NCBI GenBank assembly: GCA_003216775.1
Contig: QCII01000004.1
Span: 1-64,000 of the forward strand
Direction of reading: 5' to 3'
Length of the DNA stretch: 64,000 nt
Origin: Prochlorococcus sp. AG-402-K21
GTDB lineage: Bacteria > Cyanobacteriota > Cyanobacteriia > PCC-6307 > Cyanobiaceae
Both the position numbers and the translations under genes were made by a program. Positions 6,825 to 33,339 of the stretch are shown here, one piece after another. The notes under the pieces were generated by a model. That model saw only the letters and a list, made by a program, of their open reading frames with translations. It did not search any database and was not told where the DNA came from. Positions within the stretch are counted from its first letter, which is position 1. The number at the start of each line of letters is the position of its first letter.

Positions 6825-6848
6825 AAGGGAATCATAATCCACTAAAAA

Positions 6849-6866: not shown

Positions 6867-6890
6867 GAAAAATTTAATAAGGATTTTTTA

Positions 6891-17971: not shown

Positions 17972-18180
17972 AAGTTAAGATTAAAAAGCATCTGAGATAC
18001 TAAACCCACTTTAACCTTTTGAGCAATTCCCAAGAACTCATTTATTGTTATAAATTTCAAGCAAGAGACAATATAAAATTAATCTATTTAATTAAATTTT
18101 ATGCTGTCAAAAATTAACGCTTTTTTCTAATTTGTATTGCACTTCAATAGTCTTCAATTAAATTTTTTTTGTTCTAAACT

Positions 18181-18789
18181 TTAAAAATTATAATTATTGT
18201 TCCAATATTCTTCCCCTTCATAGTTACTGTAGATTACTTGTGAAATACCATTTGTAATTCCGAAGAAAATAAACTGATCTTCAAAACCTCTATCTTCAAT
18301 CTCTCCCTCATATTCTTCTATCTCATTTCCTAGATAATTAAAACCAACAATAATATTTGAGTTTTGTTCACCATAAAGTTCATGTTTAATGTTTGATGGT
18401 AGTTTTACTGGAACAGAGATTTCTAAAAATTCATTTTTATCAAATGTTTCATCAATTGACATATCAAATTCTAATGAACATTTTGACAGTCTCATAATGA
18501 CCGCATAAGTTCCATCTTTGAAAGTTTTCCCATCTATTATGCTAGGCCCAATTTGATCAATATCTTCGCTAAAAGAAATTTTTCCCTCATTACCAAAATC
18601 ACCCTCTCCCCCATTATTGAAAACGCCCTCTGCTTCGTTATCCATGCCATCGTATCTCAGTTCTTCAAGCTCTTCGTCAAGAGCATTATTTTTTAATGAA
18701 TCTTTAAGCAGAATAATTTGATCATCGTCTAATTCGCAGAAACCAATTCTTCCCGCTGGTTCTGATTTCATGTAAATTGATTTTTCCAT
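18181..18789 (-). CDS. Acidic hypothetical island protein, 202 aa
   Basis: A strongly acidic protein with no signal peptide or membrane helix. It begins with a strand and a G-R-I-G-F-C-E-L-D-D-D-Q-I segment, has a Gly/Asp/Glu/Asn-rich low-complexity part (about 45-72) and then beta-rich sequence including T-Y-A-V-I-M-R-L-S-K-C-S-L-E-F. The opening pattern (strand, Gly, x3, C/G, x, hydrophobic, two or three acidic residues) recurs in the 265- and 417-residue proteins of the same island. Not recognised by name. Confidence 0.65.
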   Translation of the reverse strand: MEKSIYMKSEPAGRIGFCELDDDQIILLKDSLKNNALDEELEELRYDGMDNEAEGVFNNGGEGDFGNEGKISFSEDIDQIGPSIIDGKTFKDGTYAVIMRLSKCSLEFDMSIDETFDKNEFLEISVPVKLPSNIKHELYGEQNSNIIVGFNYLGNEIEEYEGEIEDRGFEDQFIFFGITNGISQVIYSNYEGEEYWNNNYNF

Positions 18790-19050
18790 TTTAAATTTAT
18801 TTGGATGGAACTAGATGAACACTACTCCATATAATAAAATTGTTATCTAAAGATGCTTCCTCAGACATATCAGTTAAAAATAATATTAAATTATTAAATT
18901 TATAAAAAGTAAAGTAATATATGGATATAACTATTTATTCATTTAATACCCTTGAAAAATATTTTGGCTTTATGAAAAAATAGTACTATATTGTTTGGAC
19001 TTAGTTCTATCGCATGGGCAGGTCATTAATTGCAAGAATTTTTTTGAATC

Positions 19051-19227
19051 ATGAAAAGAATTATTGATGACGAAACAAAAACGATCTGGTATTACAGCGA
19101 ATCAGGATTTCCAACTTACATGGCAATAAAAGTTTATAGGGAACGAAATCCATCTTATGAGCATTGCATTGCTAGTAAAGAAACTTGGGAAAGATTATGT
19201 AATACTAACAAACCGATGAGATTATGA
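19051..19227 (+). CDS. Small hypothetical island protein, 58 aa
   Basis: A 58-residue frame from ATG 19051 with aromatic and basic residues (T-I-W-Y-Y-S-E-S-G-F-P-T-Y, R-E-R-N-P-S-Y-E-H-C) and no hydrophobic segment. It is unlike its acidic neighbours and lies alone on the plus strand between two minus-strand genes. A DNA- or protein-binding role is possible but not shown. Confidence 0.45.
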   Translation: MKRIIDDETKTIWYYSESGFPTYMAIKVYRERNPSYEHCIASKETWERLCNTNKPMRL

Positions 19228-19357
19228 TTAAAGGGATTTTACTCTCAAAATTGAATTTATAATTTAGTTAGTTTTGGTTTTTAACAAGAAAATTTATAAA
19301 TAAAAAATATCCTAGAAAAGATTAGTGAGCATCTATACAAGCTGGATCTATAAAGAT

Positions 19358-19371
19358 TTAGTCCACACTTT
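19358..19371 (+). repeat. Direct repeat TTAGTCCACACTTT, copy 1
   Basis: The 14-mer TTAGTCCACACTTT lies just beyond the stop end of the 198-residue acidic gene; an identical copy is at 20825-20838. A shorter related stretch (CACTTTAACC) is also near 18006, so this may be a small dispersed element of the island. Confidence 0.5.
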
Positions 19372-19398
19372 AACCATTAAAGTTTTGTATTTTTTTTA

Positions 19399-19995
19399 TT
19401 AAGTAATGTTTTTAAAAAAATTTTTTGCTACTTCTTTAACATTTTGAATATATTCATCTTCATTATCCTCATTAAGCTCTAAGGGTAATTGGGCAAAAGC
19501 TGCAGATCTTAAACTTTGAATTTCACCAGTTTTATCTAAAAATCTAAAAGTTACAAATTGATCAGCAGTGCCTCCATCTCCTTGAGACTCATATTCACAA
19601 CTTTCACCTGCTTGTTTAATATCAAATAAAAGCTTTCCATTATCATAAGTTTCAAACTCTACATCTAAAGGAGAATCATCATCGAAGTAATTAAAAAGGT
19701 AACTTGCATCTTCTAGTGTATGTTCATGAATAAGTTGAAAAGGTTCTTTATCTGTTGGGTCGGGAATCAAAGGAGTTTCTTTTTCTATTAAATTTTGTTC
19801 AAATATTTCCCCATCTTCTTTTTCTATATAAAGGTCAAGTACTAAATAAGGTTCTGTTTCAATTTCAGTTCTTTCCCATAAAAAATCTTTTAAAATTTCA
19901 AATAAATCTTCCTCACTACTAATAGAATTTCTTTCGTAATTTGAATAATCGAATTCAAAAATACATTCTGGTGTAAGTGTACCTTCCTTGTTCAT
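19399..19995 (-). CDS. Acidic hypothetical island protein, 198 aa
   Basis: A soluble, very acidic protein. It combines beta-rich stretches (Y-L-V-L-D-L-Y-I-E-K-E, D-Q-F-V-T-F-R-F-L-D-K) with one central acidic helix (Y-L-F-N-Y-F-D-D-D-S-P-L) and a C-terminal helix. A G-E-S-C-E-Y-E-S-Q-G-D-G-G loop sits at about 133-145. It is divergently paired with the 221-residue gene (78 bases apart), and the two share one promoter region. No known domain. Confidence 0.6.
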   Translation of the reverse strand: MNKEGTLTPECIFEFDYSNYERNSISSEEDLFEILKDFLWERTEIETEPYLVLDLYIEKEDGEIFEQNLIEKETPLIPDPTDKEPFQLIHEHTLEDASYLFNYFDDDSPLDVEFETYDNGKLLFDIKQAGESCEYESQGDGGTADQFVTFRFLDKTGEIQSLRSAAFAQLPLELNEDNEDEYIQNVKEVAKNFFKNIT

Positions 19996-20073
19996 TTTTT
20001 TTAATGCTTTTAAAGATATTACTTTACTTTAAATAAATTCAATTATTATGTATCAAAATTATATTTTATCTAG

Positions 20074-20739
20074 ATGTCTAAAGACACTTTTATAAAGAAT
20101 TGGAATAAATTCTTCAATGATGGTTCTAATAATGAGAATTTAACAATTTCTATAGGGTGGGGTGGTGAACTATTTCAGCATGATCAGAACTATTTTTCTA
20201 AGAAAGAACTTGAGGAGTTTTTTTCTGATGATAGTTTTGGTCCTGATGAATTAATTGAAGCGGCTGAATGTTGTAATGATTTTTATGGAATGCTTTTTAA
20301 TGGAGAATTAACATTAAATGTTAATGGTAAAGAGATGAATATAAATGAGAAGGATCTTTTGACTGCGGAATTATTAGAAATAAGGAACTCAATAATTGAT
20401 CAGTCGGACTCTTATGCAGAAGTTGCTAAGACATTTTCTGGGAGCGAAGATTGGAAACATGAATTTGAGATTGAAGAAGAAAAGTTTGATATCAGAAAAT
20501 TAAAAATATGCCTAGCAAAATATAACGTATTAGGGTATGAATTTAAGGGCGTCGTGAATGTTGAATATGACGGAAATGAAAGTGAGACCGAGATTTCAGA
20601 TTCTGGATTAGAAAACAATAGTACAGGAGTTGTATTTTATGAAAAGACGGAAGAAGGTTTCAAAAAATCAAATGAAATTTATGATGATGATTTTTATGAT
20701 TTAGATACTCTCCAAACAGGCGTAAATGAATGGATATAA
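20074..20739 (+). CDS. Acidic hypothetical island protein, 221 aa
   Basis: An acidic soluble protein. It opens with an I-S-I-G-W-G-G-E-L strand-turn, followed by an acidic helix (S-K-K-E-L-E-E-F-F). Further on, F-D-I-R-K-L-K-I-C-L-A-K-Y-N-V-L-G resembles F-D-I-S-K-L-L-I-S-V-E-K-F-T-L-G near the end of the 417-residue protein at 30528-31781, which indicates that the two share a C-terminal domain. The only acidic gene besides that one on the plus strand. Function unknown. Confidence 0.65.
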   Translation: MSKDTFIKNWNKFFNDGSNNENLTISIGWGGELFQHDQNYFSKKELEEFFSDDSFGPDELIEAAECCNDFYGMLFNGELTLNVNGKEMNINEKDLLTAELLEIRNSIIDQSDSYAEVAKTFSGSEDWKHEFEIEEEKFDIRKLKICLAKYNVLGYEFKGVVNVEYDGNESETEISDSGLENNSTGVVFYEKTEEGFKKSNEIYDDDFYDLDTLQTGVNEWI

Positions 20740-20824
20740 CTAATAATATATTTAACCTAGAAAGTAGACTGCCCAAAAAGTGCCCTGCAATTTATGGATA
20801 CAACATCCAAGATATTATTCCGAA

Positions 20825-20838
20825 TTAGTCCACACTTT
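20825..20838 (+). repeat. Direct repeat TTAGTCCACACTTT, copy 2
   Basis: Identical to 19358-19371. The two copies flank the divergent pair of acidic genes (198 and 221 residues). Confidence 0.5.
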
Positions 20839-20861
20839 CTTCTCTAAATGTACAGATTATT

Positions 20862-21623
20862 TTAGGATGGTGGGATATTGATATAAGCATCATATGTCTC
20901 TATTTCTGCGATAATCTTATTTCCTAGTAAGAGAGAAAAATTAATGGTTTGTATTTGATCTAAGAAGTCAAGGGTGCACTTATATAAACGCTCAAATTCT
21001 TCTTTCTGCACATGATCTCCATTAAGTTTTAAGGCGAGACTTTTTATGAAATATAAACCTTTTCCATTGCCTTCGATATCAAGTTTAGAAATTGAATAAT
21101 GATCTTTTTTTAGAAAATAATCAGCATAATTTTCAGTACCATCATCATAACTTATTGACAAATTATCTAAATATATCGCTTCCAAGTCGATATCATTTGA
21201 TTCCTCAAATTCACATGATACATCTTCATTTAATACTATTTCCAAAAAGCTGGATTTTGGAATCTCAATTTTAAGGCCATTTTCATCTATTAGTCTTATA
21301 TCTCCAAATGCCAGGTTATTTATGCGTTGAAAATAGGTTGATTCATCCAATTGATTTTGCATATAAAAATGTTTAGAAATACATTCCTTTAAACCTTCAT
21401 GATTCCATTCATAAGAATTTAATTCCTCTTCCTCTTCATTAAGAATTAATATTGCCCTATCTTCATCAGAACTATCGCAATCACCATCCATATATATAGC
21501 TATCTCCCCTTCTGAGTCTGAAAACAATTCCATGATTGGAAGTGATCTCTCGGGTCCTGTTTCTTCAAGCCTATAAAGGAGACTGTCGATTAACAATTCA
21601 TTTTCTAATATTGATTTATCCAT
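20862..21623 (-). CDS. Acidic protein at the end of the nuclease-ligase operon, 253 aa
   Basis: A soluble, acidic, mixed alpha/beta protein. It has an early E-G-E-I-A-I-Y-M-D-G-D-C-D-S-S-D-E-D segment, a strand rich in I and L around I-R-L-I-D-E-N-G-L-K-I-E-I-P, and a helical C-terminal third. The gene starts 20 bases after the nuclease-helicase stop, so it belongs to the same operon. It could be an accessory or regulatory subunit, or a DNA mimic; none of this is proven. Confidence 0.65.
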   Translation of the reverse strand: MDKSILENELLIDSLLYRLEETGPERSLPIMELFSDSEGEIAIYMDGDCDSSDEDRAILILNEEEEELNSYEWNHEGLKECISKHFYMQNQLDESTYFQRINNLAFGDIRLIDENGLKIEIPKSSFLEIVLNEDVSCEFEESNDIDLEAIYLDNLSISYDDGTENYADYFLKKDHYSISKLDIEGNGKGLYFIKSLALKLNGDHVQKEEFERLYKCTLDFLDQIQTINFSLLLGNKIIAEIETYDAYINIPPS

Positions 21624-21643
21624 ATAATTTATAATAATAAAAA

Positions 21644-24600
21644 TTATTTTTTTTCGCTTAACTTACAAAAAGTATTTAGCAATTCAGCGTCTTTTATTGT
21701 GTTAACCAATGTTGAGGAGAGATTATTAGAACCCACTATTATTGATAAACATTTTGCCCTACTAATAGCTACATTAAGTCTATTTGGTTGAAATAGAAAT
21801 TCTAGCCCTCTTGGTGCATCATCTCCCGAACTGGCAGTTAATGAAAATATTGATACAGGAGCTTCTTGTCCTTGGAATTTATCAACAGTACTAACTCTAG
21901 CTTTATCATCCAAATAATTTCTTAGAAGATTTACTTGAGCATTATAAGGTGCGATAACAAGAATTTCTTCTTTAGTAATTTTTCCCGATTTTAATTTACC
22001 ACTAGAAAAATATTCATAACTACTTAAATAAAGTTTATCTACAATTTCTTTTATTTTTAATGCCTCTTCTTTTGATGTTTGACTATTTCCAATATGACTA
22101 ATATTTTCAAAGTGGAATCCCTGATTAGGAAAATACATTCCACTTGATGACTTGATTTTCTCTCTCCAAATTATTTTGTTAACACAATTTTTATGATAAC
22201 TTTTTAGTTTGCTTTCATAAAAAATATCGGAAACAATTGAGGCTATTGATGGCTCCATCCTCCAACTTTTTGATAAAAAAATACCAAGATTATTTGGGAC
22301 TACTTTTTTATTATTAATCCAATACTCAAGGACCGATAATCCTCCCCCAAATTTATGATTAGCTTTTGTTGGTTGAGAAAGTTGTTGTTGATCTCCGACT
22401 AAAATGATTGATTTGGCGCACCTAGAAATAACAGCGGTATTTGCAAGAGACATTTGTCCTGCCTCTTCAATCACTAATACATCATACTTATTAATGGATT
22501 CTTCAATGGAATGTGCCCAAGTTGTACCACCAACAACAAGCATTTCTGAAGTTATTTTTTTGGACTGAATTGTATTTATAGAATTTTCTGAAAGTTTTTC
22601 TGTTCTTAAACTGGATCTAGTATTATCGCTTTTTACAATGCAAATATCTGATGATTTTTTATCAGAAATTTCTTTTATTTTGATTAATAAGTTATCTATG
22701 GCTGGATGACTATTAGCACAAATAGCAATTCTTTTACTTTTTAATGCCAAGCCTTCAATTACTTCAGCAATCAATGTTGTTTTTCCTGTACCAGGTGGTC
22801 CCTGAATAGCTAAGATTGCTGAATTTTGTTTACTCATATACTCAGTAATATGATCTGCAAATCCTAAATCTATGTTTTTGAGATTATTATTTAATTCAAC
22901 TAATTCATCTTTACCTTCACGTTCTAATAAGTTTTTAAGTGATTTTGGTAGTGATTGTTTTTTTTCTATCCAAGATTCAGCTTGAGGCAGCAATCTATTA
23001 ATTAATGATCTACTAAGATCACTTCCTTTCTTGAATAAAGAGCAATTTTTTATTAAACCTGGGAAATTATTTATTTCAAAATCTTTTATATTTGGGTTTT
23101 CTTTCTTCCAATTTTCACATTTTTTCTCTTGAAATTTAAAACTTATTATTCCTGAATCTTCCTCTAATTTTTGAACATTGAGACTTAATCCAGTTTGTTG
23201 AATTTCCATTTCTAAACCTCCATCTAAGAAATCAGATTGTAATTTCGAATTAGAGAATGGTTCAAATTTGAAATTATAAAGATCTATGCCTTTATCTTTA
23301 TCTCTTTTTATATCTTGAAAAATAGCTTCATGGATGCATTCTGGATCTTTTTCTAATTCAAAAATATCAGCCTTTTTCCTATCAAAATATCTCCACCATA
23401 AGGCTTTTGCTTCATTAGAGTGAAATCTTAATAATTGAGAAAGAACTATTTGCGATTTCCAAGAAATATCAAAGGAACCTTTATTCATTAATAATTGATT
23501 TGAGTCATTAAAGTCATTTTCTTCATCTAAATATCGTAATTCTTTAGGGATAAAAGAAAAAAATTCATCACTTATTTTATTTATTGCTTCATAAAGATTT
23601 GGTTCTTTATTTTTTGATTCGTTAGATAAACCTTTTTCGAAATTTTCTTCGGCGAATAAATTTATATCTTTATATATTTTCGTTAAATCAAGCAAGTATG
23701 TATGTAATTCTTCTGTCGACTCACAATCATCTTTATTATATAGTTCTATATTTTGCAAAAGAGGACTTTCTGAAACTTCTTTTTTCTCTCCCGATTCAAG
23801 AAAACGTTGATAAGCAACAACTGAATCTGCAGCATTTGTTATAACTGTTTTTCTCTCTTCTTTATAGAGCTTTTCGACTTTCTTTATAGAATAACTCTCT
23901 TCTCCAAGGAATATAGCATTTTTAACAATTGGAAGAAGGTCCACCATTAAATCTTCACGTAACCAATCATCTATTATTTTTACAGCAAAGGAGTTTGGAT
24001 GTTTTTGTTGAAGTTTTCTCATAGCGTCCTTTTCATAATTTGCATAGTGATAAATATGAAGTTTTGGGTACTTAATTCTTCTTGCTTCAATCCAATTAAC
24101 CCAATTCTCAAATGCTTCAGCTTCCTGAGCATGATTATGTGCCCACCATTTTTTAAATTCAATTTTTCCATTCTTTTCATAACAAGCACCAAAAAGATAC
24201 TCAAGCTTTATTCCTTTCACTGAATCATTAAATCCTTCCATATCAAACCAAACATCTCCATCATCTCTTAAAGGAATAATATTTTTAATCTTGCCTTCTT
24301 TCAAATAAGAATTTTTCCAAACGCGGGGTTCAATATTGGGTTTCCCATCTGATGATCTTGGCCTGACTTGAACCTTGGCTTGATTATATAAGTTTCTTAA
24401 CGTATCTTTTTTACTTCCAAATATTTTATTGTCTGGTTTTAAAGCAGCAAAATCATCTATGGTTTTTATATTTTTTTTAATTAATTTGACTCTTTGTGAT
24501 TGTGTCATGCCAGCTACCATTATCAAATCTCTATTTTTCTTAAGTTTTTCAGTCACATAATCTGTCCACTTACCGTGATTACCTGGGACAAATTTGATTT

Positions 24601-25201
24601 CCATATCTTCGTTGAAATTCTCAATAAATTTTTTATATTTTTTTTTTAAAAGAGAATACCAATTCCAATATTTCTTAGTCTCAAATCTTTTAAAGTTCAT
24701 CCCACCAAGATAAAGCTCAAATTGACTTGCCTTTTGCCCTTGATAGTCTCCAAGTAAGTCGCAATATGCGCATGATTGAATTATGAAAGTTGTCTTAGAA
24801 GTTGAAGAAAGCTTACATTCTATTGGAATATAGGACCAATTCCCTAAGTTAGAAGGCTCGTCAATTCTTTTTAAGACATCAGCAGAACCTTTAATTTCAT
24901 TATTTTTCAGGGATGCTTGGTAGATATAGGAAGCTCCATTAATCATTGCTATCTTTGTCTCTTTAATCCTCTCTTCTTCTGCGAAATTACCAATATTTAC
25001 AACTTCATTATTTTTATTTTGAAAACTTTCGATAAGACTTTCTTCATGTTTTTTTCCATCTTTAATAAGTTGTTTTGCTAATTCGGATTTTGGAGGAATT
25101 TTATCTTTAAATTTTTTTCGGATGGTTAATTCTTCAAGTTCAGCAGCAAGTTCTGAAATCGCAAAAATAGATATTTGAGTTGGAGTGATAATTCTTCTCA
25201 T
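21644..25201 (-). CDS. RecB/Cas4-like nuclease + DEDD exonuclease + Dna2/Upf1-type helicase fusion
   Basis: An 1185-residue three-part DNA or RNA processing enzyme resembling the TM0106 family. (1) Residues 1-180: PD-(D/E)xK nuclease with H52, D108, E128-C-K130 and Q142-x3-Y146, all the RecB/Cas4 core motifs. (2) About 312-520: RNase H-like DEDD exonuclease with W-F-D-M-E-G, H-Y-A-N-Y-E-K-D and Y-N-K-D-D-C-E. (3) About 780-1180: SF1B helicase with Walker A Q-G-P-P-G-T-G-K-T-T, Walker B V-I-E-E-A-G-Q, G-D-Q-Q-Q-L, D-K-F-Q-G-Q-E and N-V-A-I-S-R-A-K. All catalytic residues look intact. Fifth gene of the operon, 12 bases after the ligase. Confidence 0.92.
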   Translation of the reverse strand: MRRIITPTQISIFAISELAAELEELTIRKKFKDKIPPKSELAKQLIKDGKKHEESLIESFQNKNNEVVNIGNFAEEERIKETKIAMINGASYIYQASLKNNEIKGSADVLKRIDEPSNLGNWSYIPIECKLSSTSKTTFIIQSCAYCDLLGDYQGQKASQFELYLGGMNFKRFETKKYWNWYSLLKKKYKKFIENFNEDMEIKFVPGNHGKWTDYVTEKLKKNRDLIMVAGMTQSQRVKLIKKNIKTIDDFAALKPDNKIFGSKKDTLRNLYNQAKVQVRPRSSDGKPNIEPRVWKNSYLKEGKIKNIIPLRDDGDVWFDMEGFNDSVKGIKLEYLFGACYEKNGKIEFKKWWAHNHAQEAEAFENWVNWIEARRIKYPKLHIYHYANYEKDAMRKLQQKHPNSFAVKIIDDWLREDLMVDLLPIVKNAIFLGEESYSIKKVEKLYKEERKTVITNAADSVVAYQRFLESGEKKEVSESPLLQNIELYNKDDCESTEELHTYLLDLTKIYKDINLFAEENFEKGLSNESKNKEPNLYEAINKISDEFFSFIPKELRYLDEENDFNDSNQLLMNKGSFDISWKSQIVLSQLLRFHSNEAKALWWRYFDRKKADIFELEKDPECIHEAIFQDIKRDKDKGIDLYNFKFEPFSNSKLQSDFLDGGLEMEIQQTGLSLNVQKLEEDSGIISFKFQEKKCENWKKENPNIKDFEINNFPGLIKNCSLFKKGSDLSRSLINRLLPQAESWIEKKQSLPKSLKNLLEREGKDELVELNNNLKNIDLGFADHITEYMSKQNSAILAIQGPPGTGKTTLIAEVIEGLALKSKRIAICANSHPAIDNLLIKIKEISDKKSSDICIVKSDNTRSSLRTEKLSENSINTIQSKKITSEMLVVGGTTWAHSIEESINKYDVLVIEEAGQMSLANTAVISRCAKSIILVGDQQQLSQPTKANHKFGGGLSVLEYWINNKKVVPNNLGIFLSKSWRMEPSIASIVSDIFYESKLKSYHKNCVNKIIWREKIKSSSGMYFPNQGFHFENISHIGNSQTSKEEALKIKEIVDKLYLSSYEYFSSGKLKSGKITKEEILVIAPYNAQVNLLRNYLDDKARVSTVDKFQGQEAPVSIFSLTASSGDDAPRGLEFLFQPNRLNVAISRAKCLSIIVGSNNLSSTLVNTIKDAELLNTFCKLSEKK

Positions 25202-25213
25202 ATATTTTTTAAA

Positions 25214-26581
25214 TTAATTTCTAATTATCCACCCTTTTTTGATATTAGATTCTATAAATTTATTTGCTATTTCTTGTGCCTCCTCTTTATTTCGAGCTGT
25301 TTTTAACTTTCTTTCCAAAGGAGACTTTCTCCCTGAACTAAAATCCGAGTAAAAAACAATCCATTCTGGCCAACCATTCCAAATCTCAGATTTAAAGGTT
25401 TTTAAGGTTATTATTTTCCTGATCGAAATACCATTTTTGCCATCTTTTATCCAAACTTTTCTATCAATTAATTTACTTTTTGGTAATTCAATTTGTTTTA
25501 TTTTTTCATTAATTATTTTTGAATCTAAAAAAGATTCTATTTGGGATATTCTTATATCTGTTTCATCGGAATCCTTATCCAATCTCTCACGAATTATGAC
25601 TGAGTGAATTAAGCTTACACTTTTTGTTAGCGCGAGAGGTTCCCAAATATTATTTTTGAATTCTAAAACCATTCTCCTGATATTGTTAGCATTACTATCT
25701 TCATTTTGAATTTCAGTACATTTAACTTCTAGGACTACTTTAGGTTTGACAAAACGGTAAAGGTTTCCATCACTGCTTGAATGCCTGAATTTACTTTCGC
25801 ATTCAATATTTTCTAACTTTTTAAATAGATCTTCTTTTAGTGAGGCAGATAAATTACCGCAAGCTCCTATTATTAGAATTGATTTGTCCTTCCTCTTTAA
25901 TCCAAGTAACACAGATCTGACTTTTTCTGTTTCATTTACCTTATTTGTAAATCCAACTACTAATGCATCAATAGAAATAGATGGCTTCACCTTATATGTT
26001 ATTTCACTTCCTGTACGAATAACGATCCCTTCAGCATTTTCTTTTTTAACAGATTTTTCATAAAAATCTTTTAAAGAATTTTTGTCATTAACTTCTTTTG
26101 TCTCTATAACTTTAATATTATTTTTTTGTTTCTTAAAAATTGATTGAATTTCTACTAATCTTTTTTCGTAATTTAAGGGAAGTATTTTGCCTTCAATCTT
26201 TATCAAATCGAAAATAGCAAAAGATAAATTATTAAAATCTTGTTCAGAAATAGCTTTAGCAACATCTCCTACTCTCTCTCTAGAATCCTTTTGAACATAT
26301 AGTTCACCTGCCAAAATTAAATTTTTTATACTACTTGGCAAGCAACCTTTTAGGGATTCAATTATTTTGCCTTCTTTTATAAATCTTCCACCCTTAGCAA
26401 ATAATATAGCACCATCTTGATCGATATAAGCTAACCATAATTCGCCATCAATTTTTTTACTAACAAAAATTTTTCCTGAAGGTATTAAACTTATTTCCTC
26501 AGGTTTTAATGGCCGATATTTTGCTGCGATAGTATGTTTATATTTTTTTGCAATTGATTCAAAATTAATTTCTTCTTTCAT
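25214..26581 (-). CDS. ATP-dependent DNA ligase
   Basis: A 455-residue enzyme of the ATP-dependent ligase family. Motif I K43-I-D-G (adenylated lysine), A-G-E-L (about 90), motif III F-A-I-F-D-L-I, motif IV E-G-I-V-I-R-T-G and motif V Y-K-V-K-P-x(6)-D-A-L-V-V-G-F are present, followed by an OB fold. The last 80 residues (W-P-E-W-I-V-F-Y ... A-x-x-I-A-N-K-F-I-E-S-N-I-K-K-G-W) vaguely recall a WGR-type domain. Start at ATG 26581, whose A is shared with the TGA of the gene before; a TTG one codon upstream is possible. Bacteria normally replicate with NAD+-dependent LigA, so this is an accessory ligase. Confidence 0.9.
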   Translation of the reverse strand: MKEEINFESIAKKYKHTIAAKYRPLKPEEISLIPSGKIFVSKKIDGELWLAYIDQDGAILFAKGGRFIKEGKIIESLKGCLPSSIKNLILAGELYVQKDSRERVGDVAKAISEQDFNNLSFAIFDLIKIEGKILPLNYEKRLVEIQSIFKKQKNNIKVIETKEVNDKNSLKDFYEKSVKKENAEGIVIRTGSEITYKVKPSISIDALVVGFTNKVNETEKVRSVLLGLKRKDKSILIIGACGNLSASLKEDLFKKLENIECESKFRHSSSDGNLYRFVKPKVVLEVKCTEIQNEDSNANNIRRMVLEFKNNIWEPLALTKSVSLIHSVIIRERLDKDSDETDIRISQIESFLDSKIINEKIKQIELPKSKLIDRKVWIKDGKNGISIRKIITLKTFKSEIWNGWPEWIVFYSDFSSGRKSPLERKLKTARNKEEAQEIANKFIESNIKKGWIIRN

Positions 26582-27273
26582 CAACTTATTGATTTGAGTT
26601 CTAAGTTAGATAAACGCATTAATAATGCATATGCATCATCTTGAACACGTCCCTCAAGAAATGCTCTCCAAGGTAATCCATTGTTTTGAAAAATTAGAGG
26701 TTCCTTACCTTTCTCTCCACCCCCAAGAAGCATCATTTCATCATTTTCATCTAATTCCTTAGCAATATTGAAAAGAAATTCAAAAGTTAAACCATCTGAG
26801 TGCCAAAGTTGAAGAGTTCTGCTAAAAACAAATTTTCTTACAGCATCTTTTCTTTTCAATTTCAATTTTGTAAATCTTATTGGTAGTTCATCAGTAATAT
26901 TAGATAATTTATCTTCAGGGATTCTCCTATCTTTTTCATTCCCATCTTTATCAAAAATTAATTCAATCCAATTTGGAGCTATTTTCATAATTTCATTTTT
27001 TTTATTTATAAAAACTGTGTTTGTTTTTTCAATAGGTCTACCAATTAATTCAAAATCCAATTCAGGATCTTCATCTAGTAATAGATTAGGCAGTTCATCT
27101 TTATATTTAGATAATAAACTTTCATAATCACTATTCTCTCCGGAGAGCAAAAATCTTTTTGAAAAGACCTTTTCTTTACGAAAAGCCCTAACTGGATTTG
27201 AGGGGGCTTTTATTGGTGCAAAATGCACAAATGTATTTTTTGAATTTGAATCTGAAATATGTATCTTTCTCAT
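26581..27273 (-). CDS. Unknown operon protein, 230 aa
   Basis: A soluble 230-residue protein. Visible features are a basic N-terminus, an acidic L-L-L-D-E-D-P-E-L-D-F-E-L segment at about 69-81, I-A-P-N-W-I-E-L-I-F-D-K-D-G, and a conserved-looking end W-R-A-F-L-E-G-R-V-Q-D-D-A-Y-A-L-L-M-R-L-S-N-L-E-L. No membrane helix and no known catalytic motif. It is 2 bases after the 199-residue gene and overlaps the ligase gene by one base, so it is probably a partner of the ligase. Confidence 0.7.
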   Translation of the reverse strand: MRKIHISDSNSKNTFVHFAPIKAPSNPVRAFRKEKVFSKRFLLSGENSDYESLLSKYKDELPNLLLDEDPELDFELIGRPIEKTNTVFINKKNEIMKIAPNWIELIFDKDGNEKDRRIPEDKLSNITDELPIRFTKLKLKRKDAVRKFVFSRTLQLWHSDGLTFEFLFNIAKELDENDEMMLLGGGEKGKEPLIFQNNGLPWRAFLEGRVQDDAYALLMRLSNLELKSIS

Positions 27274-27275
27274 TT

Positions 27276-27875
27276 TTAAAACATTTCAAAGTCTAATTCA
27301 TCATCTTCATCAGATTCTTCATTCTCAGGAGGAAGAGCATTTGGAGATAGCAAAATAACATGATTTGGAATACCAACAATAGCGAAATATCCACTATCAT
27401 TTTTTAGAATAAAACAAGTTTCCATTCTGTAATCAGCTCTAAAATTAAAATTACATTTCCAAATTTCACCTTTATCTAAAGAACTTTCTAGATCTTTAGA
27501 TATTTCATCGGGAAATATTGAATATACAGTTGTTACAGATAGGTCGAGAAGTTCTTTTTGATTTGTAGGACCTTCTAAGACTTGTTTAATACCTAAAGTA
27601 GAGGGAATCAAATTTAATGCATTTTCAAATTCATCAATAGCTCCTATTTCATTTGATTCAATTTGTTTGCCTCCATCAATAAACCATCCTTGAGAAGTCA
27701 TTCCTGAAGTAATTAATATTTTTCCATCTTCAGTAAGTGAAGCCCTGTTGCATTCTTCATTATTTTCATCAATGGCCAATCTCTTTTTGTAACCGTATAA
27801 TTTTTTTCTTTCAATTTTTTTAATTTGAAAGATTGATTCTTTATTATTCATAGTTACGATGATTGGTTTAGCCAT
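27276..27875 (-). CDS. Unknown operon protein, 199 aa
   Basis: A soluble protein with a basic N-terminal third (I-E-R-K-K-L-Y-G-Y-K-K-R), then L-T-E-D-G-K-I-L-I-T-S-G-M-T-S-Q-G-W-F-I-D and a strongly acidic C-terminus (E-N-E-E-S-D-E-D-D-E-L-D-F-E). The basic start suggests nucleic acid contact, while the acidic tail resembles those that bind clamp or SSB-type surfaces; both are inferences. It lies 7 bases after the 265-residue gene and 2 bases before the 230-residue gene. Confidence 0.7.
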   Translation of the reverse strand: MAKPIIVTMNNKESIFQIKKIERKKLYGYKKRLAIDENNEECNRASLTEDGKILITSGMTSQGWFIDGGKQIESNEIGAIDEFENALNLIPSTLGIKQVLEGPTNQKELLDLSVTTVYSIFPDEISKDLESSLDKGEIWKCNFNFRADYRMETCFILKNDSGYFAIVGIPNHVILLSPNALPPENEESDEDDELDFEMF

Positions 27876-27882
27876 TTATTTT

Positions 27883-28680
27883 TTAATATGCTCCAGCTTC
27901 ATATAGTACTTCTTCTTCTGAGTCTAAAATTTGCAAATAATCATTCTCCCACTCGCCTTTTCCTTCAATTGAATAAGAATTTATCTTATGTTTTTCTTTG
28001 ATTTTTTCAGTCAAATCAAAACCCCATATTTCCTCTTGCATACTTTCTTCAAAGTCATAATCTTTTTCTAAATCATTTTCATCAAATTCTTGACCATGAC
28101 TTTTTAATGCACTCTTAAGATAAGATTCAAAAGTATTTTTAGGTATATAGAGAAAATGTTCAAGGATCTCATCTTCAACATAATCCATTACTTCATCAAG
28201 AAGGATAAATCCAATATAAATATTTTTAGGATCGAAAATCTCTTCATCATTTAATCTAATGTAGTATGTGGCAGTAATTCTTTTCTCATATTTTTTTGTA
28301 TAAATCACTAGTCCAGAATCTTCAACATCCTCATGTCCAGGACATGATGTTGTGAATATTTTAATCCCACTCTCATCAATGGAGCCATCAAATAATTCGT
28401 TAAATTCTAGATCATCTGGATTATCATATTCTGATTCATTTTTAACACATGCCTCTTCAATAATAACTTCTGCTTCCCGTATATTTGGACCGTATAAATG
28501 AAAACTTTCATCGTACATAACTGCATCAAAATCTTCCCCATTTTCAAGCACGCAAGAAGATGCTATATCACCATTATCGATTGTGTTTTTTATGGAAGAT
28601 ATAAGATCCTCATCATTAATGGTTCCACAAGTAAATTCGCCTCCTGTTTCTGTTATTGATACTCTTATGAATTTTGGCAT
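27883..28680 (-). CDS. Acidic protein at the head of the nuclease-ligase operon, 265 aa
   Basis: First gene of the six-gene operon, from ATG 28680. The product is strongly acidic (many D/E runs, such as D-E-N-D-L-E-K-D-Y-D-F-E-E-S), soluble and mixed alpha/beta. The N-terminus I-R-V-S-I-T-E-T-G-G-E-F-T-C-G-T-I-N-D-E-D-L matches the pattern seen in the 202- and 417-residue island proteins. Four cysteines occur before residue 115. It may be a DNA mimic or a regulatory subunit; unknown. Confidence 0.7.
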   Translation of the reverse strand: MPKFIRVSITETGGEFTCGTINDEDLISSIKNTIDNGDIASSCVLENGEDFDAVMYDESFHLYGPNIREAEVIIEEACVKNESEYDNPDDLEFNELFDGSIDESGIKIFTTSCPGHEDVEDSGLVIYTKKYEKRITATYYIRLNDEEIFDPKNIYIGFILLDEVMDYVEDEILEHFLYIPKNTFESYLKSALKSHGQEFDENDLEKDYDFEESMQEEIWGFDLTEKIKEKHKINSYSIEGKGEWENDYLQILDSEEEVLYEAGAY

Positions 28681-28844
28681 TGCGTGTTTTTTTTAAAAAA
28701 GATATCAATCTTTTTAAGGTAGGGTTAATAATATTATAAGTCTAAAATAATTTGTAATATTCCTCATATATAAAATTAGGGAAGTAAAAAAGGTATTTTT
28801 ATACTGATAAAGGAAGAAAATAAATTTTTTTAACTAAGTTTTTC

Positions 28845-29360
28845 TTATCTACAAATTGGTCCTTCAACTAATAGTTTTTCTTTTGAAAGTTTAATTTCTG
28901 CTTCTTTATAACGGGCCAATGCATCATCACCCCATACCCATTCATGGGGCATTTTTCTTGCTAATTTCATTGAACTTAATTTTTTGTCCTCTTCTCTAAG
29001 GATCATTGCCACATATCCTGCCTTAGAAAGAATATCCTCAACTTCTGTTTGTTCTAATGGTGCCTGTTCAAGTAGTTTTGATCTAACTATTGATGCGGGT
29101 ATTGAATGCTCATAAACAAATGGTTGTTTAGTTCCATAAAACTTTGCTCTTTTATACCTTTTATTTAAATCAATATTCCTCTCTTTGATTACTTTTAAGG
29201 CTTCATTAGAAATATGGTAAAAAGAACTAGCTAGGGTTACTTTAGCAATCATATTGCTTAGCAGATATCCAGAATCTCCTTTCAAATCTCTTACTTCATC
29301 GATCCTTAATCCGGAAGTAATCCATTGAATTAATGCTCTCTGATCAGAATTCCAGTTCAT
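28845..29360 (-). CDS. EHxIP-motif protein, paralogue 1, 171 aa
   Basis: A basic soluble protein with a conserved-looking core F-V-Y-E-H-S-I-P-A-S-I-V, then R-K-M-P-H-E-W, then A-R-Y-K-E-A-E-I. The gene at 29990-30523 has F-T-Y-E-H-P-I-P-S-K-I-I, R-M-P-N-G-W and E-R-Y-K-I-A-G in the same order, so the two are paralogues. The E-H-x-I-P motif could be a divergent metal-binding site such as that of an HNH-like nuclease, but only one conserved His is obvious. It is 19 bases downstream of the BRCT gene and 165 bases upstream of the operon. Confidence 0.7.
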   Translation of the reverse strand: MNWNSDQRALIQWITSGLRIDEVRDLKGDSGYLLSNMIAKVTLASSFYHISNEALKVIKERNIDLNKRYKRAKFYGTKQPFVYEHSIPASIVRSKLLEQAPLEQTEVEDILSKAGYVAMILREEDKKLSSMKLARKMPHEWVWGDDALARYKEAEIKLSKEKLLVEGPICR

Positions 29361-29379
29361 TTATCAATAATTGCAACTT

Positions 29380-29634
29380 TTAAGATTTTATCATTTTTAG
29401 AAATGTTGCTTCATCTACAATCTTAACTCCCAAGTTTTTTGCCTTTTCAAGCTTGCTTCCTGCTTTTTCACCAGCAACCAAAAGTTTTGTTTTACCACTA
29501 ATAGAACCAGTTGGAGAGCCACCTGCCATCCTTACTAGTTCTTCCCCTTGCTTACGGTCTATTTGAGTTAATTTTCCAGTAATAACAACTGTTAGTCCTT
29601 CGAGGGAGGTTGGATTAACTTTGAATTCTTCCAT
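29380..29634 (-). CDS. Stand-alone BRCT-domain protein, 84 aa
   Basis: Almost the whole 84-residue product is one BRCT domain of the type at the C-terminus of NAD+-dependent ligase LigA: L-E-G-L-T-V-V-I-T-G-K-L, then R-M-A-G-G, then G-S-I-S-G-K-T-K-L-L-V-A-G-E-K-A-G-S-K-L-E-K-A and L-G-V-K-I-V-D-E-A-T-F. BRCT domains bind DNA ends or phosphopeptides and recruit partners. An orphan copy beside an ATP-dependent ligase that lacks BRCT suggests it serves that ligase in trans. First gene of a minus-strand pair. Confidence 0.9.
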   Translation of the reverse strand: MEEFKVNPTSLEGLTVVITGKLTQIDRKQGEELVRMAGGSPTGSISGKTKLLVAGEKAGSKLEKAKNLGVKIVDEATFLKMIKS

Positions 29635-29768
29635 GCCTTTAAAAAAAACTAAAAATTTTATTTAATAATAACTAAAAAGCAAAAGGATAATTAATCAAAT
29701 GAACGAAGATTTATAAAGAAAGATATTTATAATTATTATGAGAATTATTTTATTTTGAGGATTACATC

Positions 29769-29921
29769 ATGAGAACTTGGGAGATAAAGTATCGTTTACA
29801 ACCAGTTGGAGGAAAGTATTTCTTCAGAAGAGTTGAAGCAAAGTATCAGCATGAGGCCAATGCAATTTTCGATGCAGAAATGCCAAGTGCAACAAGATGT
29901 GGATCTGCAAGGCCTTTGTGA
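29769..29921 (+). CDS. Small basic island protein, 50 aa
   Basis: A 50-residue frame from ATG 29769, opening M-R-T-W-E-I-K-Y-R-L-Q-P-V-G-G-K-Y-F-F-R-R-V-E-A-K. It is compact, basic and aromatic, with an Arg/Lys-rich strand-turn-strand look that may bind nucleic acid. A GAGGATTAC sequence precedes the ATG by about 10 bases. It is on the plus strand, in the divergent region between the two gene groups. Confidence 0.55.
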   Translation: MRTWEIKYRLQPVGGKYFFRRVEAKYQHEANAIFDAEMPSATRCGSARPL

Positions 29922-29989
29922 ATTTCTATGCATTAGATCTTTAATAAAGTTTTTTCTTGAGGTCACTTTCTAAAAATTCAAAATTGACG

Positions 29990-30523
29990 ATGAATTCATT
30001 ACAAAAAAAAATCTATAGTGTGATAAAAGCAATTGTAGAAATTGATGATTTTGAAAATTACTATACTGAGCATTCAATAAGCTATGGATTAAGGAATTAT
30101 GTTGCTAAATATAGTCTTTCAAAAGATGAGTATTTAATTACAGAGGATGCATTGCATTATTTAAATAATAATAATTTATTGAATGAAGGATGTCTAAGAA
30201 GAGGTATTAAGAACTCAAAGAAAAATGATAAGAAAAATAATGGTTTCACATATGAGCATCCAATCCCTTCAAAAATCATCACAGATGAAATAGTTAAAAA
30301 TAGAAAATTGCCGAATAAAATTATTGAAATACTTAATTGGGCTGATCTTATTGTCATAGTGACAAAAAATGAAGATAAGTGTCTTCAAAGGATTGGTTTA
30401 CAAAGCAGAATGCCAAATGGCTGGAAATATCTTACTGATAGCCAATTTGAAAGATATAAAATAGCAGGTTTATTAACTAAACCATTTCAAAAAATTAAAA
30501 TGTATGGTTCAATTGTAAGATAA
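29990..30523 (+). CDS. EHxIP-motif protein, paralogue 2, 177 aa
   Basis: A basic soluble paralogue of the protein at 28845-29360. It carries F-T-Y-E-H-P-I-P-S-K-I-I (about residue 90), R-M-P-N-G-W (about 149) and E-R-Y-K-I-A-G. The ATG at 29990 is chosen because the two paralogues then align from their first residues (M-N-S-L-Q versus M-N-W-N-S); an upstream TTG at 29957 would add 11 residues. It is 4 bases from the next gene. Having one copy in each divergent arm suggests duplication within the island. Confidence 0.7.
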   Translation: MNSLQKKIYSVIKAIVEIDDFENYYTEHSISYGLRNYVAKYSLSKDEYLITEDALHYLNNNNLLNEGCLRRGIKNSKKNDKKNNGFTYEHPIPSKIITDEIVKNRKLPNKIIEILNWADLIVIVTKNEDKCLQRIGLQSRMPNGWKYLTDSQFERYKIAGLLTKPFQKIKMYGSIVR

Positions 30524-30527
30524 AAAA

Positions 30528-31781
30528 ATGAAAGAGTTACCTAAGAGTTGGATTAATTTGAATGATGAACAAATAATAGAAAAATTAAACAATGAAGTAG
30601 TAGATCTTGATATTATTGAAAAGCTTGCTGAATCAGATAATCCTGAAATTAGTGAAGCGGCAGAAGAAGCTTATGCGACTCAAGAAGCCAGGAAAATAGC
30701 CAATCAAAAACCAACTGAATGGAAGAATTTATCAAGAAATGAAATAATAAATAAGATCAGAAATGAAAAAATAGAAAATAGGTTTTTAACTTTCTTTGCA
30801 GAAAATTCTTTAGATAAAAAGATTCTAGAAGAGGTAGTTCTCAATGAAAATCTTCAAGAAACTGATCTAAATAAAATAATTAAAAAAAATATTATTTCTA
30901 AAAATAAAATACTTGCTTACAAAGTAATGCCTGAAGGATTTTGGAAAAACAAAGAAGATGAAATTCTTAATGCAATTGAAAAAGGTAAGATTAATAGTGA
31001 ATCTTTAGATTGTTTATACAATTTCTTAGAAGAATGGAACGGTGATAAAAGTGATTTCTTTTCAATAGAAGTAAATCAAACGGCATTACAAAAAGCTATA
31101 TCTTTATCCCCAAATGTCTCCATAGAAATTTTAAAAAAATTTTGCAATGACTATAATTTGGACAATACAATAATTCAGTCTGCTAAAAAAACATTAATGC
31201 AAAGACAACCTAATTTGATTAGCAAAATTAATGATACGAAGAGTTCACGAACACTATTTATTAAGGGGACTGGCTACGATATTGGATGTGATGAGGTAGA
31301 TGAGGATAAATTTGATGAGCTTCTTAGTGCTGATGAATCTGATTTTGGATCATTGTTATACGATTTTGATGTAGATATTGATGATAGCGGGCCTGAATTT
31401 CCCCCTATCTTAATCTTAAAAAATAATGCAACAGGTGAAGAATTATGTATTAACGACTTAAACTCTTTTGAAAATCTAGGACTTTCAATTGATGGGGATT
31501 ATCCAATAAGTGAAAATTCCAGTGAAGATGAAAATGAATCTAGTTATGATCAAATGGTTACCAAAGTAGAAAAACTTAAGGGAATTTGGGGCAAATTTGA
31601 ATTTAATAAGGGAGAAGATTTTGATATCTCAAAACTTTTAATAAGTGTTGAGAAATTTACTCTTGGTAAAAAAGAAGCAAAATCTGAAATTAACATTTGT
31701 AGAGTTTACTACGATGATATTGATATGGATGAAGACGCCGTAGAGACAAGAGGAATATCAATTGATTATTTTCTTGAATAG
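30528..31781 (+). CDS. Repeat-containing protein with acidic C-terminal domain, 417 aa
   Basis: Two parts can be seen. Residues 1-230 are helical and hold three degenerate repeats, each opening with P-x(2)-W (W8, W65; W139 as P-E-G-F-W) followed by E-I-I/L-x-x-I and a hydrophobic helix, recalling a helical solenoid of HEAT/LRV type. Residues about 234-417 are very acidic and beta-rich. They start F-I-K-G-T-G-Y-D-I-G-C-D-E-V-D-E-D-K, the pattern shared with the 202- and 265-residue proteins, and contain F-D-I-S-K-L-L-I-S, which resembles the 221-residue protein. It therefore looks like a solenoid fused to the island's acidic domain. It follows paralogue 2 by four bases. Confidence 0.7.
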   Translation: MKELPKSWINLNDEQIIEKLNNEVVDLDIIEKLAESDNPEISEAAEEAYATQEARKIANQKPTEWKNLSRNEIINKIRNEKIENRFLTFFAENSLDKKILEEVVLNENLQETDLNKIIKKNIISKNKILAYKVMPEGFWKNKEDEILNAIEKGKINSESLDCLYNFLEEWNGDKSDFFSIEVNQTALQKAISLSPNVSIEILKKFCNDYNLDNTIIQSAKKTLMQRQPNLISKINDTKSSRTLFIKGTGYDIGCDEVDEDKFDELLSADESDFGSLLYDFDVDIDDSGPEFPPILILKNNATGEELCINDLNSFENLGLSIDGDYPISENSSEDENESSYDQMVTKVEKLKGIWGKFEFNKGEDFDISKLLISVEKFTLGKKEAKSEINICRVYYDDIDMDEDAVETRGISIDYFLE

Positions 31782-31815
31782 TTAAAGAAATCTTTGAATA
31801 GCCAGAAAAGAATTT

Positions 31816-31890
31816 ATGAAACTTATGGAAGAAGGATGGAAGAAAACTTCTATAATTTTGATAGCTATGCATGCCATAGAATTAGCTTAA
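31816..31890 (+). pseudogene. Possible gene remnant at the right edge of the island
   Basis: A 24-codon frame whose first part reads M-K-L-M-E-E-G-W-K-K-T-S-I. An E-x-G-W-K-x-T ending is typical of small picocyanobacterial families such as DUF1651. The frame runs a few codons upstream without a start before meeting a stop. It may be the decayed end of such a gene, or chance. Confidence 0.25.
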
Positions 31891-31916
31891 TGACAGTATG
31901 AAAAAGGGATTTTAAA

Positions 31917-32267
31917 ATGACAAAAGGGGTTCATAAACACCTTCTACTATGCGCAACACCCACAAAACAGAAATGCTTTAAAGGCAATGAAGGTCAAAAA
32001 ACATGGGAATGTCTGAAAAAGACTTTAAAAAAATTTGAGAATGATCCCTCTACAAAAAACGTTCACATATTAAGATCAAAAGCTGACTGTTTAAGGATAT
32101 GTAAGAACGGCCCAATTCTTCTTGTGTGGCCTGATGGTATTTGGTATGAGAAAGTTTCTCCAGATAAAATTTCAGAAATTTTTACCTCACATATTATTAA
32201 CGGTAAGCCAATAGAAAAATGGATTTTCAAAAAAACCCCATTTTTAAATAGTCCTAGATACTCATAA
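31917..32267 (+). CDS. Thioredoxin-like [2Fe-2S] ferredoxin
   Basis: A 116-residue protein of the thioredoxin-fold [2Fe-2S] family common in cyanobacteria. It has the pattern H-L-L-L-C (Cys12) with K-C-F (Cys19), then D-C-L-R-I-C (two Cys about 59-63) followed by G-P-I-L-L-V-W-P-D-G-I-W-Y. The cluster ligands thus appear complete. It probably acts as a low-potential electron carrier or cluster sensor; the partner is unknown. The 3' end overlaps the convergent hydrolase gene by 14 bases. This is the first core gene after the island. Confidence 0.85.
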   Translation: MTKGVHKHLLLCATPTKQKCFKGNEGQKTWECLKKTLKKFENDPSTKNVHILRSKADCLRICKNGPILLVWPDGIWYEKVSPDKISEIFTSHIINGKPIEKWIFKKTPFLNSPRYS

Positions 32268-33339
32268 ACCAGTTCTTTACGACTTCATCTGACCAGCAGC
32301 CATTAATCGAATGAAAACCATTATGACCTCCTTTTTCAGTTATAAAAATAGTGAATTTATCAATAGGTTCTTTTCTTAAATTCAAAGTATCCTTATATGG
32401 AACCCAGGGATCATCCTTGGCATGAATAAAAAGCATTGGAGGTAATTGTTTTATTGAGTTTTGGATTCTAAATATTGGAGAAGCTTTAATATAATAATCC
32501 TCTAAAGAATTAAATCCCCAACTAGGAGCTGTAAATTTCTGATCAAATTCTCTTATACCTTTTAAACTTCTAATTTTTTTTCTTAATTTCTTGTTATTAA
32601 AAATTTTGCCTTCATCATTATATCCATCCCATAACTGATTTTTTAATCGGTGTAGTAACCATCTTTGGTAGATATAATTTCTAGGTTTTTCAATACAGAT
32701 ACTGCATGATGATAAATCTAAAGGGCTACTCACGCAGGCTAGGCCATCTAAAAGTTTTTCTCCATTTTTTTCATCGTAATCTAAGCAGGCATTTAAAAGG
32801 ATTGTTCCACCTAAAGATAATCCAACTCCGTAAATTGGAAGATTATTCATCTTAATGGTATCTTTAAACTCTAAATTAATGAATTTTTTAAAATAATTAA
32901 TTGCTGAAATAACATCATTGGAGCATCTGGCACAATAATTTCCTTTAGCTAAATATCTCGCAGATCCAGATCCTCTCAGATTTAATTTAAGAACTCCAAA
33001 ACCATTATTTGCTAATTTCCTAGAGATTCTTCTTAAACCAAACCGTTTAGTTGAGCCCCCTAAACCATGTGTAACGATTACAAAACCCACAAGAGTGTCA
33101 TAGTTTTCAGGTAATTCTAAAAACCCTAGAAGATAATCACCTTCAAATTTTTTAGAAAGAATTTTATTAACTGGAAAGAATATTTTTTTATTTTTTTTTG
33201 GTTTACCAAAATCAATAACAAAAGTATCTCTCAAAGTTTGTAAGTCGCCACCTATCCAAGGTAAGACTTCTTTAAATGGCTTATTTTTTAAGTAATCTGA
33301 AAAACTAGAAGATATACTATTATTTCTCCCCAACTCCAA
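32254..33339 (-). CDS. Alpha/beta hydrolase, YheT/EMB8 type
   Basis: A 361-residue hydrolase of the YheT (COG0429) group. The oxyanion region is V-I-V-T-H-G-L-G-G-S, the nucleophile elbow G-V-G-L-S-L-G-G-T-I-L (Ser about 172), and the acid and histidine are near D-D-P-W-V-P and G-G-H-N-G-F. The cysteine-bearing Y-C-A-R-C and C-S-I-C are unusual but unexplained. The natural substrate is likely an ester or lipid. The start region overlaps the end of pntB by 20 bases, so it may be cotranscribed with the pnt genes. Confidence 0.88.
   Translation of the reverse strand: MELGRNNSISSSFSDYLKNKPFKEVLPWIGGDLQTLRDTFVIDFGKPKKNKKIFFPVNKILSKKFEGDYLLGFLELPENYDTLVGFVIVTHGLGGSTKRFGLRRISRKLANNGFGVLKLNLRGSGSARYLAKGNYCARCSNDVISAINYFKKFINLEFKDTIKMNNLPIYGVGLSLGGTILLNACLDYDEKNGEKLLDGLACVSSPLDLSSCSICIEKPRNYIYQRWLLHRLKNQLWDGYNDEGKIFNNKKLRKKIRSLKGIREFDQKFTAPSWGFNSLEDYYIKASPIFRIQNSIKQLPPMLFIHAKDDPWVPYKDTLNLRKEPIDKFTIFITEKGGHNGFHSINGCWSDEVVKNWFMSI

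Follow-up and report, generated by a model that had tools for sequence, protein, structure and literature searches.

Among the genes of a 64,000-nucleotide stretch of Prochlorococcus sp. AG-402-K21 (contig QCII01000004.1, positions 1 to 64,000; hereafter the window), a six-gene minus-strand run at 28680–20862 contains a conserved trio that encodes p199, p230 and an ATP-dependent DNA ligase. We conclude that this trio, complemented by a free-standing BRCT protein in the family of the window's genome, is probably a diverged bacterial end-joining module, i.e., a Ku/ligase module resembling non-homologous end joining (NHEJ). This is the best explanation because a Ku-like protein is linked to a LigD-like ligase and because the genes are kept together even where they have become unlinked. 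The original prediction, made from the letters of the DNA, had proposed DNA-end processing and sealing for this locus, and this function is now well supported by the Ku-like predicted fold of p199, the LigD-like ligase and the BRCT genes of related genomes. The genes it had named, including the BRCT and EHxIP-motif genes upstream, were all recovered in the open reading frame (ORF) list at the same positions on the minus strand. The six genes are indeed closely packed, but instead of two shared gene ends we found one, the successive gaps being 7, 2, -4, 12 and 20 bp. In the direction of transcription, the BRCT gene is followed by the EHxIP gene, a 164-bp gap, an acidic protein of 265 aa, p199, p230, the ligase, a nuclease-helicase and a second acidic protein of 253 aa.

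The conserved core is p199-p230-ligase. Varying queries (ligase, p230 or p199) found 11 cyanobacterial genomes with any of these genes, and 10 of them had all three. Order and strand are the same in nine genomes, i.e., the window's own (G000), Prochlorococcus sp. AG-363-P06 (G1086, the genome of locus L025), G139, G228, G275, G785, G807, G839 and G849; the ligase lies 3.7 kb further on in G785, and p230 is frameshifted in G849. In the tenth genome, G1050, the genes for p230 and the ligase overlap, with the homolog of p199 on a different contig, hence the co-occurrence of the trio outlasts the loss of linkage. The eleventh, G565, carries p230 together with a truncated piece of the ligase (L034 9445–10635), and p199 was not found in the 20 kb read; caspase-like and TPR/NTPase genes were seen nearby by eye, and the locus is apparently a decaying module. 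Trio genomes with named kinship span four cyanobacterial families (f1, f23, f26 and f41). Co-occurrence in other genomes had been set beforehand as one of the tests that could refute the predicted gene set: the trio passed it, whereas the nuclease-helicase did so weakly and the acidic and EHxIP genes turned out to be local.

The module is rare. The ligase query found it in 4 of 300 genomes of the family (G000, G139, G228, G275), and a ligase scan of genome contigs added one further trio, in Prochlorococcus sp. AG-363-P06, the closest named ligase relative. With the p230 profile, 2 of 386 genomes of the phylum were found (G000, G565) and 5 of 195 in the order of G565 (G565, G785, G807, G839, G849); the p199 profile found 2 of 388 genomes of the class (G000, G1050), and a search of 155 genomes with the G1050 p199 homolog returned only itself. 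Each sample was taken from a larger group and the samples overlap; the counts therefore give rarity and not an exact frequency. Between the window and L025, protein identity is 81.9% for p199, 90.9% for p230 and 85.7% for the ligase, and the DNA of the cassette is 86.9% identical over 2724 bp, starting 16 bp ahead of p199 and ending 32 bp inside the L025 nuclease-helicase gene. Pattern-based scans of viral contigs confirmed no relative of ligase, p230 or p199. No p230 was found in plasmids, and the ligase had only partial, weak matches in phages and plasmids.

The ligase ORF encodes 456 aa with the motifs KIDGE, AGELY, FAIFD, AEGIVIR and YKVKP intact. Profile comparison with five LigD proteins (hhalign) gave a probability of 98.4 and an E-value of 4.7e-15 over 256 columns across the adenylation and OB domains, i.e., the LigD-type ATP ligase domain of bacterial NHEJ is present. 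All 23 PDB profile matches were DNA ligases, with DNA ligase 4 among the best, and the DNA ligase C-terminal (OB) domain was matched by 9 of 9 ligase members. The protein ends in an extension of roughly 90 aa that had no Pfam match; a WGR domain suspected there by eye was dropped, as no such Pfam match occurred in nine members.

The case for Ku comes from structure prediction. At the level of sequence families, p199 (199 aa) had no match above curated cut-offs in Pfam or NCBIfam and nothing of note in PADLOC or PHROGs. An AlphaFold2 (AF2) model built with five sequences reached a mean predicted local distance difference test score (pLDDT) of 69, with averages of 84–96 in the ten-residue blocks of residues 1–20 and 91–170. 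Foldseek comparison with the PDB gave 520 matches (E up to 10), the best 50 of which were all Ku or Ku-containing complexes; for entries titled DNA-PK or NHEJ, the Ku chain was inferred from chain length. VIA-align superposed p199 on Bacillus subtilis Ku with a Z-score of 10.9 (root-mean-square deviation (rmsd) 7.2 over 114) and on Mycobacterium tuberculosis Ku with a Z-score of 10.4 (rmsd 2.8 over 103), placing residues 1–175 on residues 3–174 of the latter. In the viral BFVD library, only two of the 50 matches listed had a probability above 0.9, both of them Ku (E 4.4e-4 and 4.3e-3), and the next match followed at E 0.32. Moreover, the fold search ran blind to the LigD-like neighbor, which we count in favor of end joining. 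From the medium-confidence fold together with gene linkage, we predict that p199 is Ku-like; the Ku-core fold of bacterial NHEJ is thus predicted for p199 at the confidence of this model. An acidic tip with DFxM ends 10 of 10 p199 homologs and may resemble that of SSB.

For p230, neither Pfam nor NCBIfam gave a match above curated cut-off, PADLOC gave none, and PHROGs gave a match at E 0.4 only. No PDB profile match was obtained, profile comparisons with Ku, p199 and LigD yielded nothing, and the AF2 model had a pLDDT of 33.

The BRCT gene aligns to the C-terminal end of LigA (NF005932). In G228, G275 and G139, p199 has a divergently transcribed, free-standing BRCT gene (95–104 aa) at a distance of 148, 138 and 80 bp, respectively; these relatives (L026, L027 and L028) are 58–62% identical to the window protein (E 1e-24 to 1e-25), which is encoded 1.5 kb upstream of p199. 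Because BRCT is found near p199 in these three genomes and in the window, it accompanies the trio in four of the five genomes of the window's family, counting AG-363-P06 as a member. In a six-frame search of 20 loci of other genomes (310,636 bases) with nine further island proteins, BRCT included, relatives were found for BRCT only. A fourth match, in L080, falls on the terminal BRCT part of an ORF that by eye looks like LigA. The defense models GapS2 and PDC-S48 match the BRCT protein at their C-terminal ends, with E-values of 1.7e-6 and 1.6e-12, respectively.

With bacterial NHEJ (Ku and LigD) the module shares the predicted Ku-core fold, the LigD-like ligase domain and the linkage of both genes. 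Unlike bacterial NHEJ, p199 lacks a detectable Ku signature, the ligase lacks polymerase and phosphoesterase domains, and there is an additional p230, a ligase C-terminal extension and, in the window's family, a BRCT partner. We do not file it as a member of Ku-LigD NHEJ, since the searches detected neither PF02735 nor the accessory domains of LigD. DNA ligase IV carries BRCT domains, and the DNA ligase 4 matches together with the accompanying BRCT protein are a likeness to eukaryotic NHEJ, from which the module differs in its separate genes, its LigA-type BRCT and in that no XRCC4 or XLF was recognized. In the Lhr-ligase-exonuclease repair cluster, an Lhr helicase and a metallo-nuclease stand beside an ATP ligase. 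The original prediction knew of no named system with this gene set; likewise, we found no description of the trio in the open-licence literature, which is weak evidence of absence, nor in the available passages of PMC7159879, PMC10907252, PMC9523054, PMC5704561 and PMC2292703.

Gene linkage, ligase family and predicted fold are the observations from which we infer how the module would work. Similar to a Ku core, p199 may encircle or cap broken DNA ends, which the LigD-like ligase would then seal. Judging by its conservation, p230 could be an obligate third component that acts, perhaps, as a bridge or in end processing. Docking of the parts may be aided by the BRCT protein and by the acidic tip at the C-terminus of p199. 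In the operons of G000 and G1086, the TM0106-Upf1 nuclease-helicase would unwind and trim ends before sealing. The module seems to move as a cassette and to land frequently in islands that hold defense genes; because of this the breaks that it handles may stem from phage conflict or neighboring restriction. We put forward a wider view tentatively, giving it slightly less than an even chance: a second cyanobacterial NHEJ lineage, unrecognizable by sequence, would consist of a minimal Ku, a LigD-like ligase, an obligate p230 and a picocyanobacterial BRCT subunit, and would travel as a cassette in defense islands, swap end-processing partners (TM0106-Upf1, MoxR-vWA, other AAA proteins) and rejoin chromosomal breaks that arise in phage attack or restriction. 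Cyanobacteria are commonly regarded as lacking NHEJ, and of 146 genomes sampled from the phylum, one had canonical Ku (PF02735). A hidden Ku-ligase module, if true, would change this view of cyanobacteria as NHEJ-free. It would also offer a system small enough for reconstitution, open the part played by end joining in conflicts between marine phages and hosts to testing, possibly aid genome editing in cyanobacteria and assign a function to two uncharacterized protein families.

The nuclease-helicase (1185 aa) is an exchangeable neighbor of the trio. It belongs to the TM0106 family by TIGR03491 (176.5 bits against a cut-off of 97.45, residues 32–503), and it also matches RNase_H_2 (E 3.6e-18) and the superfamily-1 (SF1) helicase model AAA_12 (E 8.2e-31). 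While residues 32–503 are alike in the TM0106 family, the protein is here fused to an Upf1/Dna2-type helicase and shares an operon with a ligase. It adjoins the trio in 2 of 10 trio genomes (G000 and G1086), which ruled out the whole four-gene set as a unit. In G228 it lies about 29 kb from the trio on the same contig, with a second copy on another contig, and in G139 on other contigs than the trio; G275, G785, G807, G839, G849 and G1050 gave weak and partial matches (E 4e-10 or worse) or none. A full-length or split copy was found in four of the five trio genomes of the family (all except G275), as compared with 2 of 36 other genomes of the same genus, a comparison that is at most suggestive because the two samples differ. 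At L080 7640–14071 (G228), the ORF that by eye reads as NAD-dependent LigA has a nuclease-helicase about 0.8 kb upstream. In G013, a copy about 69% identical to the window's and in pieces (L031 1–4868) stands directly upstream of pieces of MzaB and MzaC. Membership in Mza was ruled out, MzaA being described as a sigma factor in the passages available of PMC9523054.

Repair and defense are both possible functions, because several related loci sit among defense genes. That the system is an anti-phage defense, in which the nuclease-helicase degrades invading DNA while the trio detects ends or protects the cell's own DNA and seals it again, is a possibility that we take seriously without favoring it. 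The rare and patchy occurrence of the ligase and its variable insertion site would fit such a role, as would several neighborhoods. Beside the trio of L025, the genes at 1116–7506 encode Vsr, a cytosine methyltransferase, DUF6339/PDC-M33C and PDC-M33A, a candidate defense cluster. In G275 (L026), the ligase is followed, after 47 bp, by genes for a MoxR-type AAA protein and a DUF2201 vWA protein, with a leucine-rich repeat protein also downstream, and in G139 a tandem AAA protein lies downstream of the trio. We lean toward reading the neighborhoods of L025, L026 and G013 as pointing to conflict, and those of L052, L054 and L079, where by eye the trio stands among ordinary-looking genes, as ordinary; the latter speak against defense, and a ligase would be an odd effector. 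In addition, the comparison with PADLOC that had been proposed for this locus yielded no model for ligase, p230 or p199, and its matches to MkoA, MkoC and DpdJ were confined to the helicase part of the nuclease-helicase. Observed by eye near the trio of G275 (L026, L035) were also a trypsin-like gene and large DUF4062-like NTPases, with weak Avs1b matches.

Known conflict systems resemble the locus in part. In Mokosh, the MkoA helicase has either a nuclease part of its own or a partner. The SF1 helicase part of the window's protein is related to MkoA (E 3.7e-59, best stretch 884–1173 only), but its nuclease part and partners appear to differ, and no phospholipase-D-type nuclease was among the 25 of 29 Pfam matches listed or in the other operon genes scanned. 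The MoxR-AAA and DUF2201 vWA genes behind the G275 ligase recall the vWA-MoxR conflict systems (Kaur et al. 2020, PMC7159879), but are not found in the window: no vWA match was listed in Pfam for 20 window proteins, and a search of its own genome found no PF13203. Five passages of PMC7159879 that contain the word ligase include none on a DNA ligase, and one is a reference entry on a ubiquitin ligase. MORC/Vsr restriction islands and Mza are approached by L025 and G013, which put the trio or the nuclease-helicase beside Vsr and methyltransferase or MzaB and MzaC, respectively, whereas the window's operon has none of those genes.

It is unlikely that the whole run is ordinary island cargo, brought together by chance or shared transfer without joint function. 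For this would speak that the nuclease-helicase is only 48.2% identical between the window and L025, the two cases in which it is adjacent, as compared with 82–91% for the trio, and that G025, G045 and the half-complete genome G013 have nuclease-helicase relatives without a detected ligase. The trio itself argues otherwise, since it is found in 10 of 11 genomes, spans four families among those of named kinship and persists unlinked. Lack of joint function is possible for the nuclease-helicase and likely for the acidic and EHxIP genes. The latter had no relative in the 20 loci of other genomes (best E 0.087) and appear, from these sequence comparisons, to be local neighbors outside the conserved module.

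Several results weigh against the end-joining reading, most of them concerning p199. Residues 24–77, the region that builds the ring in Ku, are mostly below pLDDT 50. The overall scores of the model (mean pLDDT 69, TM-score about 0.40) and of the Foldseek search (best PDB E 1.1e-3, none below 0.001 among the best 50 of 520) point the same way, and barrels of INTS13/14, MED25 and SPOC reach Z-scores of 7.6–8.5. Sequence proof of homology with Ku was sought and not obtained: PF02735 matched 0 of 9 p199 homologs at a limit of E 10, where HMMER filters drop many weak matches; a p199 profile search of PDB sequences returned no Ku; and hhalign of the p199 family against 15 Ku proteins was not significant (P 0.078, 9 of 200 column-permuted controls matching the score), also with the most distant homolog, from G1050, included (P 0.29, 144 of 300 controls). 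To these add that the ligase ORF has no polymerase or phosphoesterase domain and aligns to the LIG part of LigD only, that BRCT was absent within 3 kb of p199 in L025, four filamentous-type loci (L052–L055) and G1050 (L074), and that the adjacency of the nuclease-helicase to the trio is known from two genomes only. Some bacterial Ku partners also lack polymerase and phosphoesterase domains.

Because the SPOC, MED25 and INTS13/14 barrels score as they do, a non-ring barrel is possible for p199. That p199 is a SPOC-like β-barrel adaptor, and the trio a ligation complex outside NHEJ, e.g., for nick or gap repair, would agree with the unreliable ring region and the non-significant Ku comparison. 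We nevertheless consider it improbable, as Ku ranks top in both structure libraries and stands well ahead of the next match in the viral one, the match covers the whole Ku core and not a 130-aa barrel, and the neighboring ligase is LigD-like. An RNA repair cassette, in which an RNA ligase and its partners heal cleaved RNA, might be suggested by a match to PF09414 (RNA_ligase, E 5.6e-8) and by the RNA helicases among Upf1-type enzymes, but is very improbable given the far better DNA ligase model (E 1.5e-16) and the exclusively DNA-ligase character of the OB domain and PDB matches.

Table 1. Features of the end-joining candidate locus and its surroundings in the window
Feature	Position	Strand	Basis or remark
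p199, predicted Ku-like DNA-end-binding protein, acidic C-terminal tip DELDFEMF	27276..27875	-	AF2 model, Foldseek
p230, conserved third component, no known family	26581..27273	-	in all 10 trio genomes
ATP-dependent DNA ligase, LigD-LIG-like (adenylation + OB)	25214..26584	-	PF01068 E 1.5e-16, PF04679 E 5.8e-7
Free-standing BRCT domain, LigA type, probable accessory of the module	29380..29634	-	NF005932 residues 589-664, E 3.4e-23
TM0106 RecB-like nuclease + RNase H-fold (DEDD-type) + Upf1/Dna2-type SF1 helicase, exchangeable partner	21644..25201	-	profile matches
Acidic ORFan, 265 aa, first gene of the run	27883..28680	-	net charge -46
Acidic ORFan, 253 aa, last gene of the run	20862..21623	-	net charge -37
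EHxIP-motif gene, paralogue of 29957-30523	28845..29360	-	E 7e-13 to 2e-16 between the pair
Insertion (genomic island) after dxr, carrying the whole operon; boundaries approximate	17994..31934	.	BLAST to empty sites

Neither acidic ORFan of the run matched above curated cut-off in Pfam or NCBIfam, and PADLOC and PHROGs gave nothing of note. In all, the island is crowded with six ORFans of strongly acidic character, with net charges of -30 to -46, at window positions 18181–31781; their mutual similarity was not significant, they had no relative in the 20 other loci, and paralogy among them was unsupported (best pair E 0.002–0.006). The two EHxIP copies are divergent, lie on opposite strands of the same island and match no family above cut-off (Pfam, NCBIfam); for the copy at 28845–29360, pattern-based scans of viral contigs confirmed no viral relative.

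The island measures 13.9 kb and begins shortly behind dxr, which ends at 17971. On its right flank, the gene at 31917 (116 aa) looks ferredoxin-like by eye but had no Pfam match, and it is followed by an alpha/beta-hydrolase gene (32254–33339). No match to an integrase or transposase was found among 13 island proteins scanned (10 with Pfam, 3 more with NCBIfam only), and the insertion ends showed no perfect target-site repeat, only a partial 8-nt overlap. Among 101 genomes of the genus searched, both dxr and the hydrolase gene were located in 82; their spacing is below 500 bp in 66, 500–2000 bp in 11 and above 5 kb in 5, including this genome with 14,288 bp. From these spacings and the comparison with empty sites we conclude that the operon is accessory and sits at a variable site. 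Among the loci compared behind dxr (L037–L042), four other genomes of the genus carry insertions of 5.9–7.5 kb, which by eye look metabolic, with asparagine-synthase-like and carbamoyltransferase-like genes.

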